DNA from: a virus
DNA length: 35,230 bases
IMG/VR virus record: IMGVR_UViG_3300037508_000213
Coordinates: 1-35,230 of that record
Direction: 5' to 3' (one strand)
A program made the position numbers and the translations under genes. This document shows positions 7,718 to 22,164 of this stretch, piece by piece (the stretch's first letter is position 1; every line of letters begins with the position of its first letter). The notes beneath the pieces were generated by a model. It ran no database searches. It was not told the origin of the DNA and saw only the letters and a list, made by a program, of their open reading frames with translations.

Positions 7718-7725
7718 GCTAAATA
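7718..7725 (+). promoter_or_regulatory. Late promoter -10 element (GCTAAATA) for gp13, leaderless
   Basis: GCTAAATA resembles the T4 late -10 element TATAAATA, for which transcription starts 6 nt after the last A. Here that position, 7731, is the A of the gp13 ATG. No Shine-Dalgarno site precedes the ATG. This supports 7731 rather than the upstream TTG at 7716 as the true start. Confidence 0.68.
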
Positions 7726-13262: not shown

Positions 13263-13289
13263 AAGCCCGGCATCAGTCGGGCTTTTTTT
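13263..13289 (+). terminator. Rho-independent terminator after tail tube gene
   Basis: AAGCCCG (13263-13269) pairs perfectly with CGGGCTT (13278-13284) across an 8-nt loop and runs into seven Ts. It ends the sheath-tube transcript 19 nt after the tube stop codon. The next late promoter begins within 10 nt. Confidence 0.88.
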
Positions 13290-13292
13290 ATA

Positions 13293-13300
13293 CATAAATA
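13293..13300 (+). promoter_or_regulatory. Late promoter (CATAAATA), leaderless
   Basis: CATAAATA directly after the terminator. Five nucleotides separate it from the ATG at 13306, so the predicted transcription start is the A of the ATG. No Shine-Dalgarno site precedes the gene. Confidence 0.68.
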
Positions 13301-17122: not shown

Positions 17123-17150
17123 AAATAGCCTCTTAGGAGGCTATTTTTTT
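17123..17150 (+). terminator. Rho-independent terminator upstream of large terminase
   Basis: AAATAGCCTC (17123-17132) pairs perfectly with GAGGCTATTT (17137-17146) over a TTAG loop, continuing into a T run to 17150. It ends the transcript that started at 13306. A late promoter for the terminase gene begins 2 nt later. Confidence 0.88.
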
Positions 17151-17151
17151 C

Positions 17152-17159
17152 AGTAAATA
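17152..17159 (+). promoter_or_regulatory. Late promoter (AGTAAATA) for large terminase, leaderless
   Basis: AGTAAATA ends 5 nt before the ATG at 17165, so the predicted first transcribed base is the A of that ATG. An out-of-frame ATG at 17161 lies before the predicted start. No Shine-Dalgarno site is present. Confidence 0.68.
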
Positions 17160-17164
17160 AATGT

Positions 17165-18754
17165 ATGGGATCAAAAAATATCGATAATAAGTTAGTAAAA
17201 GCAGCTCACAGTACGCTGAAATACACTAACGAACAAATAGAAGATTTATTAAAATGTACAGATAAAGCAACAGGCCCTCATTTTTTCTTAAATCATTTCT
17301 TTTATATTCAACATCCTGTTAAAGGTAAACTAAGATATGAAGCCTTTGATTACCAAAAACGTTTGGTAGACAGCTATCATCAACATAGATTCAATGTAAA
17401 TCTTTTACCTAGGCAAACAGGTAAAACTACCACAGCAGCAGGATATCTATTATGGTACGCTATGTTTGTACCAGACAGTACAATACTAGTAGCAGCACAC
17501 AAATATACTGGCGCACAGGAAATTATGCAGAGGATTAGATATGCTTACGAACTTTGCCCAGATCATATTCGCTGCGGAGTAACAAGTTATAATAAACAAA
17601 GTTTAGAATTCGATAATGGAAGTCGTATAGTGGCTCAAACAACTACAGAAACAACTGGTCGTGGTATGAGTTTATCACTATTATATGCTGATGAGTTTGC
17701 CTTCGTTGAACCAGGAATAGCTACAGAGTTTTGGACTTCTATTTCTCCTACCTTGGCCACAGGTGGTAAAGCGATTATAACATCTACCCCTAACTCAGAT
17801 GAAGATCAGTTTGCCTTAATATGGAAAGAGGCCAACATGAAGTTTGATGAGTTTGGCAATGAACAAATTCTAGGTAGAAACGGTTTCTTCCCATTTAGAG
17901 CACACTGGACTGAACATCCGGATAGAAATGAAAAATGGGCACATGAAGAACGCAGCAGAATCGGCGAAGAGAGATTTAGGCGAGAACATGATTGTGAGTT
18001 TTTAGTTTTTGATGAAACTTTGATTAGCAGTATTCGACTTGCAGAACTAGAAGGAACTGAGCCTATTATGAAAATGGGTCAAGCCAGGTGGTATAAAAAG
18101 ATTAATACTAAGTTCACTTATATTGTATCATTAGATCCTAGTCTAGGCACAGGTGGGGATTACGGTGCTATACAAATAATAGAGTTACCTAGTTTTGATC
18201 AAGTATGCGAGTGGCATCACAATCTTACGCCAATACAAGGACAGGTGCGAATATTACGAGATTTGTGTAACTTTATATCTGAAAAGTTTGCTAACCATGG
18301 TTTACCTCCTAATCTTTACTACAGTGTAGAAAATAATACAGTAGGGGAAGCTGCCCTGGTAGCAATAAGTGAAATAGGGGAAGAAAGCATACCTGGTCTT
18401 TTCCTAAGCGAACCTATCAAGAAAGGACATGTTAGAAGGTTTAGAAAAGGATTTAACACAACTCATAGCAGTAAAATATCTATTTGTGCCAAATTAAAAC
18501 ATTTAGTAGAAAGTAATAGAATGAAACTATGTTCTAAACCGCTTATATCCGAACTTAAAACTTATGTGGCTAAAGGAATAAGTTTCGAAGCTAAAGAGAC
18601 AGCTCATGACGATTTAGTTAGCTCTCTTTTACTTGCATTACGAATGGCTATGATGTTACAAGAATGGGATCCTGCCATTTATGATAAACTTAGAGAAGAA
18701 AGAGATGATGAATGGACAATGCCATTGCCCATTTATATGAATACATATAGCTAA
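17165..18754 (+). CDS. 17: Terminase large subunit, DNA packaging motor (T4 gp17-like)
   Basis: The protein is 529 residues (T4 610). The N-terminal ATPase has an adenine-binding FDYQKRLVDSYHQHR (61-75), Walker A PRQTGKTT (82-89), Walker B LLYADE (172-177) and coupling motif TSTPN (207-211). The C-terminal RNase H-like nuclease has acidic residues in VSLDPSLGTGGDYG (D324), SVENN (E389) and HDDLVSSLLLALR (D482/D483). It pumps DNA into the prohead through the portal and cuts the concatemer at headful. The start is fixed by the late promoter 5 nt upstream. It is preceded by a terminator and overlapped at its stop by the next gene's promoter. Confidence 0.95.
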   Translation: MGSKNIDNKLVKAAHSTLKYTNEQIEDLLKCTDKATGPHFFLNHFFYIQHPVKGKLRYEAFDYQKRLVDSYHQHRFNVNLLPRQTGKTTTAAGYLLWYAMFVPDSTILVAAHKYTGAQEIMQRIRYAYELCPDHIRCGVTSYNKQSLEFDNGSRIVAQTTTETTGRGMSLSLLYADEFAFVEPGIATEFWTSISPTLATGGKAIITSTPNSDEDQFALIWKEANMKFDEFGNEQILGRNGFFPFRAHWTEHPDRNEKWAHEERSRIGEERFRREHDCEFLVFDETLISSIRLAELEGTEPIMKMGQARWYKKINTKFTYIVSLDPSLGTGGDYGAIQIIELPSFDQVCEWHHNLTPIQGQVRILRDLCNFISEKFANHGLPPNLYYSVENNTVGEAALVAISEIGEESIPGLFLSEPIKKGHVRRFRKGFNTTHSSKISICAKLKHLVESNRMKLCSKPLISELKTYVAKGISFEAKETAHDDLVSSLLLALRMAMMLQEWDPAIYDKLREERDDEWTMPLPIYMNTYS

Positions 18755-18757
18755 ATA
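18750..18757 (+). promoter_or_regulatory. Late promoter (GCTAAATA), essentially leaderless
   Basis: GCTAAATA overlaps the terminase stop codon and ends 6 nt before the ATG at 18764, predicting a leader of about 1 nt. No ribosome-binding site precedes the ATG. Confidence 0.62.
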
Positions 18758-18763
18758 TAGTTT

Positions 18764-21064
18764 ATGAAAGCTATCCAAATAATCAGTCAAGATTTATTCG
18801 ACAAAGTTAGAAGTCGATTTAGTAATCTGGAAATGGGCGATGAAACTGGCGCAGTTACTATAGATCCATCTCAGGCAAGGTTTTATGATTTTGATTTTGT
18901 CAAAGAAGGTACAAACTTAGGTCGTGTCAGCATTAGTCTAGCAGATCCTGGAAGTCTTAAGATTTATTACAGTCAAGGTATTACAGAAGGTCAAGATGAT
19001 GTGGCTAAAAAGCTATGGTATTCATTTCTAAAAGAAATGCGTATGTTTGCCATGCGTAGATTGCTAAGATTTGACACTAGAGATATTAGTAAAAGTAATT
19101 TGGATAGAAACGATTTTCAACATTTAGCGGCTACTCAACCGCCGAAGGAAGATGAAATGGCATTACAAATGAATGAATCACGTTGGACACCAAAAAGTTC
19201 AAGAAAAACAAGTCGAGCAGTAAAAGGTACTACCGAAGTTATTGTTAGACATCATAACCCGGTAGATGAAACCTACGCAGGCGCTAGAAGCCAAAGAAAA
19301 AACATTAAGGCAATTTTTATACAAAACAAAGATGGAGAAAGATTTAAATATCCATTCATTCATCCCGCAGGCGCATTTGCAATGGCACAACATGTGGATC
19401 ACGGAGGAGTTCCTCATGATCCGGCAGGCAAAGCTATAATCAGAATGAGCGAGCAAATAGCTCAACTACAAGAATTTCAAAGAAAAGTACAACATCAAAC
19501 ATTGCACGATGACGCTACAGGAATTACAGAGAGGGCCGTAGGCCGTTTACACGAACTAAAGGCAATGATAGAGGCATTGAGTAAGCGTCATCATTATGAA
19601 TCATGGATAGCAGAATTTTCAGAACAAGCAGAACCTATGGTAAGTGAATTAGACCCTGTTACTATGGAAACCTACAGACAGGCATTCACTCAAACACAAT
19701 TCAACGAAGAACTTGCAAGTTTATTTCCACTAATACATAGTATTATGCAAGAAAAGGTTGATCTAGAAGACTATGTAGGTGAAGAGCTCAAAGGCAACCA
19801 AAAAGAATTAGATACAGATAACGACGATGATATAGATGCTAAAGACCTTGCTGCTTTACGCAAGTATAGGGCGGCAGGAGAAAGTATAGAAACATTCGAA
19901 GAATGGGCTACCTCTCTTGAAGAAGGCACACTTACAGACGATCAAATTAATGCTCTAAAACTAGAACTAGAAAATATGGCACAATCAGGGCAAAATCTAA
20001 ACTTTGAAACCGCATATGAGTTTTTTCAACAGTTTGGTATAGATGATCCCCAGTTAGAAAAAGATTTTAAATCACAGGCAGACTTAGATACAAGTGAAAA
20101 CCCATTAAAGACATTCAGAGACTGGGCAGCAGATGCATATCCCGAACTACTAGCACCTTTGAGTGCTGTATTACCAAAGGATGAAGCACCTGTAGAACCT
20201 GCACAAGAACCTGCACCTGCTCCCGCAGAACAACCAGCAGTCGAAAACGACGATCATCAATGGACTAATAATATGATGAGTAAAGTTAGTGAAGGACAAA
20301 ATATGGACGAAGTTTACCACCGTGTAGCAGAAATGGTTAAAAGTCGCTTTAACAAAGATAATCCAAATGTCGGTCCATTCAACGGTCAAGAAGGCATTCT
20401 TTTAGATGTAGAAAAAGAAATTAAAGAGAAATATGGCGAAGAAGTTGGGCATCATGCTAGAACTGTAGCTGAAAAATTTATGGAAAGATTAACACAAAAA
20501 TGGGCGGCTAAACATAAGCCTGCATTGATGGGTGAGAAAGGTATGTCTGAAGGAACTGGAGAAGCTATTTTATCAAAGATTGCCGCCAGTGGCGACGATG
20601 CCTATGATATGATATATGATGGATTGGTTGGTAAATTCGGTGAAGAGGCTAGGACCACACTACAAAACATGTATGACGAAATCGCCGTCAATTCTAGATT
20701 GCACCCAGACGATGACTTTGAGGAAATACAGAGTCGTATGCTTGATCGAATAGAACAAGGGTACGGTATGGCTGAACAACCAGATGAAGGCAATGCTTTC
20801 GGTATGCAGGCTAGGTATGCAGACAAAGGCGACAAGTTCAAAGTAGGCGATCAAGAATATATTAAGTCCGAAGATGACGCTGCCTTAGAAGCAATGAGTC
20901 GCCATGCTAAAGGTTGGGAAAAATATGGACAAGGCATGAAAGAATTAGCCAAGGCAGGTAAGGAAGGCGCTAGCGAAAAAGAGATGGACCGCTTACGTAA
21001 AAAACACAATAGGTATGATGAGGAAATAGAACTTATTCGTAAACTTTCAGGAATGGCAAAATAA
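18764..21064 (+). CDS. Large late protein with EF-hand/dockerin-like loop, unknown function
   Basis: This 766-residue protein has an N-terminal section (1-110) ending in a helix KLWYSFLKEMRMFAMRRLLRF, as seen in marine myophage virion proteins. A basic segment, SRKTSRAVKGTTEVIVRHHNP (148-166), precedes a conserved-looking IFIQNKDGERFKYPFIHPAGAFAMAQHVDHGG. Long helices follow (225-340), then a calcium-loop-like LDTDNDDDIDAKDLAALRKY (D350, D352, D354, D358, D361), a Pro/Ala linker (about 485-510) and a helical Glu-rich end. Late promoter at the start and terminator after the stop make it a single-gene late unit. An internal head or tail-associated protein is likely; the function is not recognised. 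Confidence 0.75.
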   Translation: MKAIQIISQDLFDKVRSRFSNLEMGDETGAVTIDPSQARFYDFDFVKEGTNLGRVSISLADPGSLKIYYSQGITEGQDDVAKKLWYSFLKEMRMFAMRRLLRFDTRDISKSNLDRNDFQHLAATQPPKEDEMALQMNESRWTPKSSRKTSRAVKGTTEVIVRHHNPVDETYAGARSQRKNIKAIFIQNKDGERFKYPFIHPAGAFAMAQHVDHGGVPHDPAGKAIIRMSEQIAQLQEFQRKVQHQTLHDDATGITERAVGRLHELKAMIEALSKRHHYESWIAEFSEQAEPMVSELDPVTMETYRQAFTQTQFNEELASLFPLIHSIMQEKVDLEDYVGEELKGNQKELDTDNDDDIDAKDLAALRKYRAAGESIETFEEWATSLEEGTLTDDQINALKLELENMAQSGQNLNFETAYEFFQQFGIDDPQLEKDFKSQADLDTSENPLKTFRDWAADAYPELLAPLSAVLPKDEAPVEPAQEPAPAPAEQPAVENDDHQWTNNMMSKVSEGQNMDEVYHRVAEMVKSRFNKDNPNVGPFNGQEGILLDVEKEIKEKYGEEVGHHARTVAEKFMERLTQKWAAKHKPALMGEKGMSEGTGEAILSKIAASGDDAYDMIYDGLVGKFGEEARTTLQNMYDEIAVNSRLHPDDDFEEIQSRMLDRIEQGYGMAEQPDEGNAFGMQARYADKGDKFKVGDQEYIKSEDDAALEAMSRHAKGWEKYGQGMKELAKAGKEGASEKEMDRLRKKHNRYDEEIELIRKLSGMAK

Positions 21065-21088
21065 TATATATTATAGCACTGAAAATAT

Positions 21089-21117
21089 TTGACATACTAA
21101 ATAAGACTGTGTATAGT
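21089..21117 (+). promoter_or_regulatory. Sigma-70-type promoter of the SSB/recombination operon
   Basis: TTGACA (21089-21094), a 17-nt spacer and TATAGT (21112-21117) form a near-consensus promoter. The expected start is near 21124, giving a leader of about 75 nt with AAGGAG at 21185-21190 before the SSB ATG. The -10 hexamer lies inside the left arm and loop of a terminator hairpin. The ACTAAATA in the spacer is probably coincidental. The long leader could host autogenous control, as known for T4 gp32, but no structure was demonstrated. Confidence 0.82.
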
Positions 21118-21143
21118 TAACTCTATGCACAGTTTTTCTTTTT
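21107..21143 (+). terminator. Rho-independent terminator overlapping the SSB promoter
   Basis: CTGTGTATAG (21107-21116) pairs with CTATGCACAG (21123-21132), with one G-T type mismatch, across a 6-nt loop and runs into TTTTTCTTTTT. It ends the transcript of the 766-residue late protein. A transcript started by the embedded early promoter begins inside the right arm and cannot form the hairpin. Confidence 0.75.
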
Positions 21144-21198
21144 ATCAGTTGGTAGAAAGAAAGAGGCATTTTAAGGCACATTATAAGGAGAAAACATT

Positions 21199-22164
21199 AT
21201 GGCCACTTTAGCAGAAATTCGCGCCAAACTTCAACAGAGCGCACAAAGTCAAATCACTTCCGGTGACAACGCAATTTATCCACATTGGAATATCGCAGAA
21301 GGAACTACTGCAACAGTAAGATTTCTTCCAGACGGAGATTCAAATAACACGTTTTTCTGGCTTGAAAGGGCCATGATCAAACTTCCCTTTGCAGGTGTCA
21401 AAGGTGAAACTAATTCTAAGCCCGTGACTGTGCAAGTCCCATGTATGGAAATGTGGGGCGATGCTTGCCCTATTCTTACAGAAGTACGCCCTTGGTTCAA
21501 GGATAAATCACTTGAAGAAATGGGTCGCAAATACTGGAAGAAAAAATCTTATCTATTCCAAGGTTTTGTTGTTGATAGTAAACTACAGGAAGATAAAGTT
21601 CCAGAAAATCCTATCCGTAGATTTATCATTGGCAGTCAGATTTTTAACATTGTTAAAAATGCGTTGATGGACAGTGAGATTGAAGAACTACCAACAGACT
21701 ATGTACGAGGCCTAGACTTCAAGGTTACAAAGACTTCAAAAGGCGGTTACGCTGATTATTCAACCAGTAACTGGGCTCGTCGTGAACGTGCTCTCAGTGC
21801 AGAAGAAAAGGCAGCTATTGATCAATATGGTCTGTTTAAACTAAGTGACTTTTTACCCAAAAAGCCAGGTGAAGTTGAACTCAAAGTTATCAAAGAAATG
21901 TTCGAAGCATCAGTAGATGGTGAAGCATTTGATATGGATCGTTGGGGTCAATATTACAAACCAGCTGGTATGGGCGGAAGCGGTAGTGCTACTGGAGAAA
22001 CTACTAAGGCACCGGCTAAAGCAGCCCCGGCTCCAGTCGCAGAATCTACAGAGGAAGATGCTCCATTTGAACCCGACACAGCTACACCACGTGCAGAAGC
22101 AAGTGATGCAGGTAGTCGTGCCGCAGACATTATAGCAATGATCCGTAAACGCAACCAACAATAA
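21199..22164 (+). CDS. 32: Single-stranded DNA-binding protein (T4 gp32-like)
   Basis: The protein is 321 residues (T4 301). The N-terminus (LAEIRAKLQQS) matches the basic cooperativity region. The core has TATVRFLPDGD, FFWLERAMIKLPFAG, PCMEMWGDACPI, RKYWKKKSYLFQGFVV and RRFIIGSQIFNIV, as in marine T4-like gp32. Only two cysteines occur in the region where T4 gp32 has its zinc site, so the T4-type zinc subdomain is absent or altered. The C-terminus is an Ala/Pro-rich linker followed by an acidic stretch (ESTEEDAPFEPD) and a final helix, the partner-recruiting tail. It coats ssDNA during replication and recombination. First gene of the early operon, with AAGGAG upstream. Confidence 0.9.
   Translation: MATLAEIRAKLQQSAQSQITSGDNAIYPHWNIAEGTTATVRFLPDGDSNNTFFWLERAMIKLPFAGVKGETNSKPVTVQVPCMEMWGDACPILTEVRPWFKDKSLEEMGRKYWKKKSYLFQGFVVDSKLQEDKVPENPIRRFIIGSQIFNIVKNALMDSEIEELPTDYVRGLDFKVTKTSKGGYADYSTSNWARRERALSAEEKAAIDQYGLFKLSDFLPKKPGEVELKVIKEMFEASVDGEAFDMDRWGQYYKPAGMGGSGSATGETTKAPAKAAPAPVAESTEEDAPFEPDTATPRAEASDAGSRAADIIAMIRKRNQQ

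Follow-up and report, generated by a model that had tools for sequence, protein, structure and literature searches.

A putative terminator fused to a promoter before the single-strand DNA-binding protein gene of a jumbo-phage fragment and its relatives

Results

The locus and its genes

The window, i.e., the whole stretch of DNA analysed here, comprises 35,230 nucleotides and makes up the entire length of its IMG/VR record (IMGVR_UViG_3300037508_000213). It is a fragment of a jumbo phage akin to PA5oct, Phosso, Atu_ph07, RaK2, 121Q and CBB, with 45–59% identity of the single strand DNA binding protein (SSB), and its only DNA match to a named phage lies within the SSB gene of Sinorhizobium phage Phosso. 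The gene upstream of SSB (Table 1) likely encodes a virion structural protein of 766 aa, as judged by sequence comparison; in several named relatives, the gene at the syntenic place bears a structural annotation. An earlier note, made from the window sequence, had placed a late transcript from 18764 here, and the structural type of the gene and the TAAATA motif of its own at 18752 agree with this. The gap between the two genes measures 134 bases and contains a sigma70-like promoter, a hairpin and a T run. An Rfam search of the window returned no family at its cut-off; the best sub-threshold match near the site (RF04312, 24.8 bits vs. a cut-off of 59) was taken as chance. Elsewhere in the window, at 255–2813, a long open reading frame (ORF) with collagen-like GPQGPQG repeats probably encodes a tail or fibre protein.

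Table 1 Features of the SSB locus and of the gene preceding it
Feature	Position	Strand	Description and basis
TAAATA of upstream structural gene	18752..18757	+	sequence; motif class from enrichment and from PMC5259590
Upstream gene	18764..21064	+	766 aa; phrog_13484 virion structural protein, weak PHROG hit, E 7.3e-6
−35 hexamer TTGACA	21089..21094	+	read from sequence; TTG here in 78/78 first-scan sequences
Nested TAAATA in sigma70 spacer	21098..21103	+	predicted start ~21109-21111
Left arm of hairpin (L)	21103..21116	+	contains TATAG of −10; fold and covariation
−10 hexamer TATAGT	21112..21117	+	left arm and first loop base; read from sequence
Right arm of hairpin (R)	21123..21136	+	contains predicted sigma70 start (~21124-21125); fold
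Terminator T run	21133..21145	+	part also a strand of H2; sequence and fold
Leader hairpin (H2)	21135..21162	+	21135-21146 with 21151-21162; fold
GCAT (D)	21166..21169	+	can pair with ATGC 21125-21128; fold
SSB ribosome-binding sequence AAGGAG	21185..21190	+	read from sequence
SSB gene	21199..22164	+	321 aa; phrog_1192 single strand DNA binding protein, E 3.6e-69

Promoter-like elements before SSB

The two hexamers of the putative SSB promoter are 17 nt apart, within the 16–18 nt spacing of the sigma70 type, and agree with the consensus at 11 of 12 positions, the joint best value among 32 promoter-like sites between 16 and 27 kb of the window. The match alone proves little, because the number of such sites is no higher than in shuffled sequence (32 vs. 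33.0 ± 5.3). Related SSB loci were collected from IMG/VR in four scans, each taking the best 80 of about 600 candidates, which biases the sample towards relatives of the four queries. In the window and the 77 first-scan loci among the matches listed, taking the best-scoring placement near TAAATA, TTG stands at the −35 in 78 of 78 sequences, the spacer measures 17 nt in 72, and at least four of the six −10 positions agree with the consensus. The full layout (TTG, 17 nt and a −10 of at least 4/6) occurs in 72 of 78 SSB sequences, vs. one of 104 TAAATA sites before other long ORFs.

The TAAATA motif within the spacer belongs to a recurrent class. Across the window and 74 loci, TAAATA lies 4–9 nt before the ATG of a long ORF in 106 cases, the distance being exactly 5 nt in 73; this amounts to 268 per 1000 occurrences, vs. 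0.7–83 for 14 other hexamers of the same letters (the two highest being register shifts of TAAATA itself), counted over related loci whose cases are not independent. Six duplicates or near-copies (L021, L034, L041, L042, L069, L070) were left out of this enrichment, of the late-gene control and of the nesting counts below; the sets used later contain each distinct upstream sequence once. Within the window, TAAATA occurs up to 32 nt before genes for tail sheath, tube, terminase, head-tail adaptor and other structural proteins, but not before UvsX, UvsW or what we take, from the ORFs, to be primase and DnaB. The sites 5–7 nt before the ATG of late-type genes are at 7720, 13295, 15780, 17154, 18752, 30021 and 33857. 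At 17123–17159 and about 13270–13300, a terminator hairpin and T run are followed directly by TAAATA and the ATG of the next late gene (terminase and a tube-like gene, respectively), and many relatives have the arrangement GGAGGCTATTTTTTT-CAG-TAAATA in front of terminase.

For phage CBB, PMC5259590 describes a gp55-like sigma factor and, ahead of structural genes, a similar ATAAATA motif. A relative of this sigma factor is encoded in four of eight related contigs, the four largest, the window itself being a fragment. Before late genes, TAAATA stands as a TATAAATA-like motif; the SSB site has the TAAATA core without the full TATAAATA, the window reading ACTAAATA. Should TAAATA act as a T4-type late promoter, much of the late mRNA of the group would be leaderless or nearly so. 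The start assigned to the nested copy in Table 1 follows from the 5–7 nt between TAAATA and ATG in late genes.

Nesting of TAAATA in a sigma70 spacer is nearly specific to SSB: 80 hits fall at 72 SSB loci, and 12 lie at other places in a total of 1.29 Mb, both strands counted. Its presence in all 78 first-scan sequences had suggested universality; this was abandoned when the wider scans gave a further group, in which TAAATA precedes the −35. Among the matches listed, 11 of 193 loci lack TAAATA in the range searched. Seven loci without it there (L205, L211, L216, L217, L219, L232, L243) display a different layout, in which a CACAG...CTGTGT inverted repeat abuts a TATAAT- or TAAAAT-like element.

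A terminator-like hairpin over the −10

The stem-loop at 21103–21136 has 14 pairs, four of them G-C, and a 6-nt loop, and is followed by TCTTTTTATC. Folded as RNA, the 56-nt stretch reaches −17.7 kcal/mol (z −5.3), and none of 200 shuffles was as stable. The features of an intrinsic terminator are present in the sequence, i.e., a stable hairpin with G-C pairs and, directly behind the stem and its CACAG, the T run TTTTTCTTTTT; the terminator score, calculated after a published formula, is 23.0.

Comparison of 40 near sequences indicates that the pairing between L and R is maintained. Paired bases make up 84.2% of cells, and 23 cells carry a change on both sides, vs. 10.2 ± 2.5 after shuffling, where none of 500 shuffles gave as many; sliding the register lowers the number of such cells to 2–8. 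As a fair caution, the covariation score at a slide of −2 (0.161) nearly ties with that of the true register (0.162). When RNAalifold was run on the full alignment, it gave part of an alternative fold made up of R-D pairs and H2 in place of the L-R hairpin; the two structures were therefore counted separately. In predicted read-through RNA, the terminator score was positive in 36 of 38 loci with the fused arrangement and negative in three loci with a degraded T run (L021, L034, L041, L042, L066, L069 and L070 were left out of terminator scoring and of the 5'-terminal-stem counts below).

Conservation of the overlap and its distribution

For counting, 192 distinct sequences were used, the window included, each with at least 130 nt upstream of SSB. 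Of the loci collected, L030, whose match starts inside SSB, and L051 and L072, with too little upstream sequence, were dropped. Under a strict rule (whole −10 inside the terminator stem-loop, start beyond the left arm), 62 of the 192 distinct loci among the matches listed carry the overlap, vs. none of 1920 shuffles, and a strict terminator within 190 nt of SSB is present in 87, vs. four of 1920 shuffles. For the window itself, 290 of 4000 dinucleotide shuffles of 21065–21198 held a promoter of at least 10/12 and none a terminator of the required kind. Judged from these comparisons, the overlap of promoter and terminator before SSB is not due to chance. This bears out the arrangement described in the earlier note, which had put the −10 in the left arm and loop of a terminator hairpin (TATAG is in the arm, the last T in the loop) and the predicted start in the right arm (21124–21125, 7–8 nt past the −10).

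With each locus judged by its one best promoter, a looser rule divided the same 192 listed loci into 77 fused, 46 with a separate upstream terminator, none with both, 54 of neither type, 14 without a TTG-type promoter and one not judged. The 54 loci of neither type speak against the fused reading, with the qualification that both rules are incomplete: L008 passes the strict rule and fails the looser one, and some of the 54 are rule misses. In an earlier tree, five loci (L014, L015, L017, L023, L026) were labelled fused by eye though failing the strict first-scan rule, and L053 was unlabelled. At L031 and L035 the T run is lost and the stretch searched holds no separate terminator; L067 has neither a fused nor a separate terminator by the first-scan rule, and its longest co-directional frame directly upstream spans 63 codons. 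The fused arrangement was absent at SSB in 12 named phage records, for which the rule was run over the whole 260 nt where TAAATA was lacking in the range searched; Phosso and Atu_ph07 have a separate upstream terminator there. A covariance model of the leader, run on 35 sources, gave no convincing second copy, all matches with E below 0.5 being at SSB.

When the 192 SSBs are arranged in a FastTree phylogeny, a split with support 98 has fused loci on either side. On one side TAAATA lies in the spacer (44 rows), on the other mostly upstream of the −35 (33 rows). The fused type may have a common origin with later losses or two origins, many inner branches of the tree being weak. The mutual exclusion of fused and separate types is carried by few independent events, and a strict evolutionary alternation of the two layouts was discarded for too few independent changes (sign test p 0.5–1). 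Among individual layouts, the group L185–L251 (e.g., L236), with TAAATA upstream of the −35, has a second form of overlap, in which TTGACAC-17-TATACT lies in a GCGCATATACT/GGTGTATGCGC hairpin followed by a T run. In L079, the T run of the separate terminator, about 60–100 nt upstream of the TAAATA-to-SSB stretch, merges with the TT of a −35 (GCCTTTTCCTTTGAC), a layout that looks intermediate between fused and separate.

The distribution also bears on whether terminator and promoter merely share bases in a short intergenic space, with no functional coupling. Such ordinary packing would accommodate the 46 of 192 listed relatives in which the two are apart, as well as the other terminators directly before TAAATA motifs in the window. 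Against it stand the recurrence of the same geometry to either side of the deepest split in the SSB tree and the 62 listed loci that fit the strict rule, although shared descent could account for both. We consider mere packing quite improbable.

A probable further role of the inverted repeat, and the predicted leader fold

At loci with a separate terminator, the T run and H2 are gone and the inverted repeat over the −10 is kept; because T run and H2 share bases, a single deletion could have removed both. Counting a repeat as stable when 10 or fewer of 200 shuffles matched it, and using distinct sequences, it exceeds shuffles in 18 of 19 separate-terminator sequences, three of three with a degraded T run and five of five others. 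The persistence of the repeat in relatives without the T run indicates that termination is probably not its sole role. Conservation of the T run is itself not specific to termination, since it doubles as a strand of H2.

One rival explanation is a DNA operator, in which the repeat over the −10 would bind a phage or host repressor and the hairpin would be a by-product of symmetry. Coverage of the −10 by the repeat in all groups, with or without a T run, fits this proposal. However, the sequence of the repeat varies widely with pairing kept, which a fixed operator would not need, and in 35 of 40 sequences the first T of the −10 lies opposite a G, forming a G-U pair that holds as RNA and breaks the symmetry of DNA. 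In our judgement, an operator is improbable.

RNA born at the sigma70 promoter has a predicted fold of its own, in which the ATGC of R pairs with D and H2 follows, and folding predicts a hairpin and an open ribosome site in the SSB leader. In 40 sequences, 11 of the 12 pairs of H2 show changes on both sides, and by every measure the R-D and H2 structure as a whole surpasses all of 500 shuffles. Covariation does not bear on the four pairs between ATGC and GCAT (93.8% of cells paired), which are almost invariant. Of 71 first-scan leaders, 69 are predicted to begin with a 5'-terminal stem, vs. 22–36% of shuffles; the group whose TAAATA precedes the −35 does not clearly share this (26 of 31 vs. 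316 of 620, mean z 0.03). A small reading frame from the ATG at 21125 was rejected, as inspection by eye found early stops in some relatives. AGGCA(A/T) motifs recur between start and ribosome site in SSB leaders (window 21164–21179 and relatives) and are possible SSB-binding repeats; in the group L185–L251 a small ATCTAA...TTAGAT hairpin lies between them.

These folds raise the possibility that the inverted repeat is primarily a hairpin device for the 5' end of SSB mRNA, TAAATA-born RNA folding L with R and sigma70-born RNA folding R with D, so that a 5'-terminal stem on each mRNA slows decay or serves SSB autoregulation; termination would be secondary, where a T run follows. The stability of the L-R repeat at loci without a T run, the frequency of 5'-terminal stems in first-scan leaders and the covariation of H2 are consistent with this. 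The proposal nevertheless leaves the outer stem and the T run, which together score as a terminator, unexplained, the R-D pairs are too invariant for covariation to address, and 5'-terminal stems in the group with TAAATA upstream are no more stable than in shuffles by mean z. We regard a primary role at the 5' end as unlikely.

Discussion

The reading we favour, with moderate confidence, is a fused terminator-promoter in which RNA from upstream is stopped and RNA born at the sigma70 promoter escapes into SSB; its core idea is likely right. The elements, their conservation and the covariation of the hairpins are shown by the sequences, and from them we infer promoter activity, start points, termination, partial escape and early or late timing. 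RNA of the late gene would carry both arms and the U tract and terminate at about 21137–21145; the hairpin does score as a terminator for upstream RNA, as the earlier note had proposed. RNA starting at the sigma70 promoter would begin in the right arm, could not form the L-R hairpin and would continue into SSB. The note's statement that such RNA lacks the left arm thus stands, but it would not merely lack it, as its right arm and U tract may pair anew with bases further downstream. RNA born at the nested TAAATA would start within the left arm, form a shorter hairpin set off from the U tract and probably escape at least in part. In predictions, the hairpin is whole in read-through RNA (−17.7 kcal/mol), absent from sigma70-born RNA and reduced in RNA from 21109 to 8 of 14 pairs (−10.2), ending two bases short of the T run; for TAAATA-born RNA the terminator score is negative in all 36 scorable of the 38 fused loci. 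The TAAATA-born case is the least sure, because the start points derive from spacing, and partial escape would not be general, since such RNA would contain the whole terminator in the group whose TAAATA precedes the −35.

Two terms of the earlier note need correction. It had taken SSB as an early unit, yet with a TAAATA late motif in the spacer SSB is probably not purely early. It had also called the arrangement a compact insulator, which is too strong: a polymerase coming from upstream would cross the −35, the −10 and the start before it reached the T run. By this geometry the fused design cannot shield the promoter from a passing polymerase, because the T run follows the start. It could keep upstream RNA from continuing, whereas a separate terminator can keep the upstream polymerase off the promoter.

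More tentatively, about 45 bp may sort three RNAs, with late-gene RNA stopped, TAAATA-born RNA partly stopped and sigma70-born RNA escaping with a 5' leader fold, and a terminated polymerase, lying on two promoters, might restart from either; we see this fuller scheme as possible rather than probable. If the fused reading is true, a late unit and a replication unit would be separated with almost no DNA, and the start site of an RNA, rather than a protein, would decide its fate. Relatives with fused and separate layouts at the same gene form a natural test pair, and annotation that keeps terminators and promoters apart would misread such sites.

Like intrinsic (Rho-independent) terminators, the SSB site has a stem with G-C pairs and a T run directly after it, in which the stop would be expected; unlike them, its left arm doubles as a −10 and its T run as a strand of another hairpin. 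TTGACA, 17 nt and TATAGT are those of a sigma70-type promoter, whereas a TAAATA in the spacer and a −10 in a hairpin arm are not. A promoter near or overlapping a phage terminator has a likeness in the central terminator and gene III promoter of filamentous phages, in which we know of no nested late promoter. T4-type late promoters (TATAAATA, read by the gp55 sigma and proposed for CBB in PMC5259590) resemble those of this phage group in the TAAATA core ahead of structural genes, and four of eight related contigs encode a gp55-like sigma; at SSB, unlike these, TAAATA lies about 96 nt before the gene and inside another promoter, rather than 5–7 nt before it. As in the phage T4 gene 32 leader, an SSB translational operator (PMC3014915), a 5' leader with predicted structure precedes an A+U-rich run that covers the ribosome site, although the structure here is a predicted hairpin, vs. 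a pseudoknot in T4. In recycling termination, as outlined in PMC11347151, bacterial RNA polymerase stays on the DNA after termination in vitro and restarts at the nearest promoter; at the SSB site, the putative terminator and promoters likewise lie only some tens of bases apart. Exact-word searches of the open-access literature on overlap, late promoters and leaderless phage RNA found no description of the fused arrangement, which is weak evidence of absence. Overall, we judge that overlapping terminators and promoters are a known kind, of which the SSB arrangement is a conserved variant.
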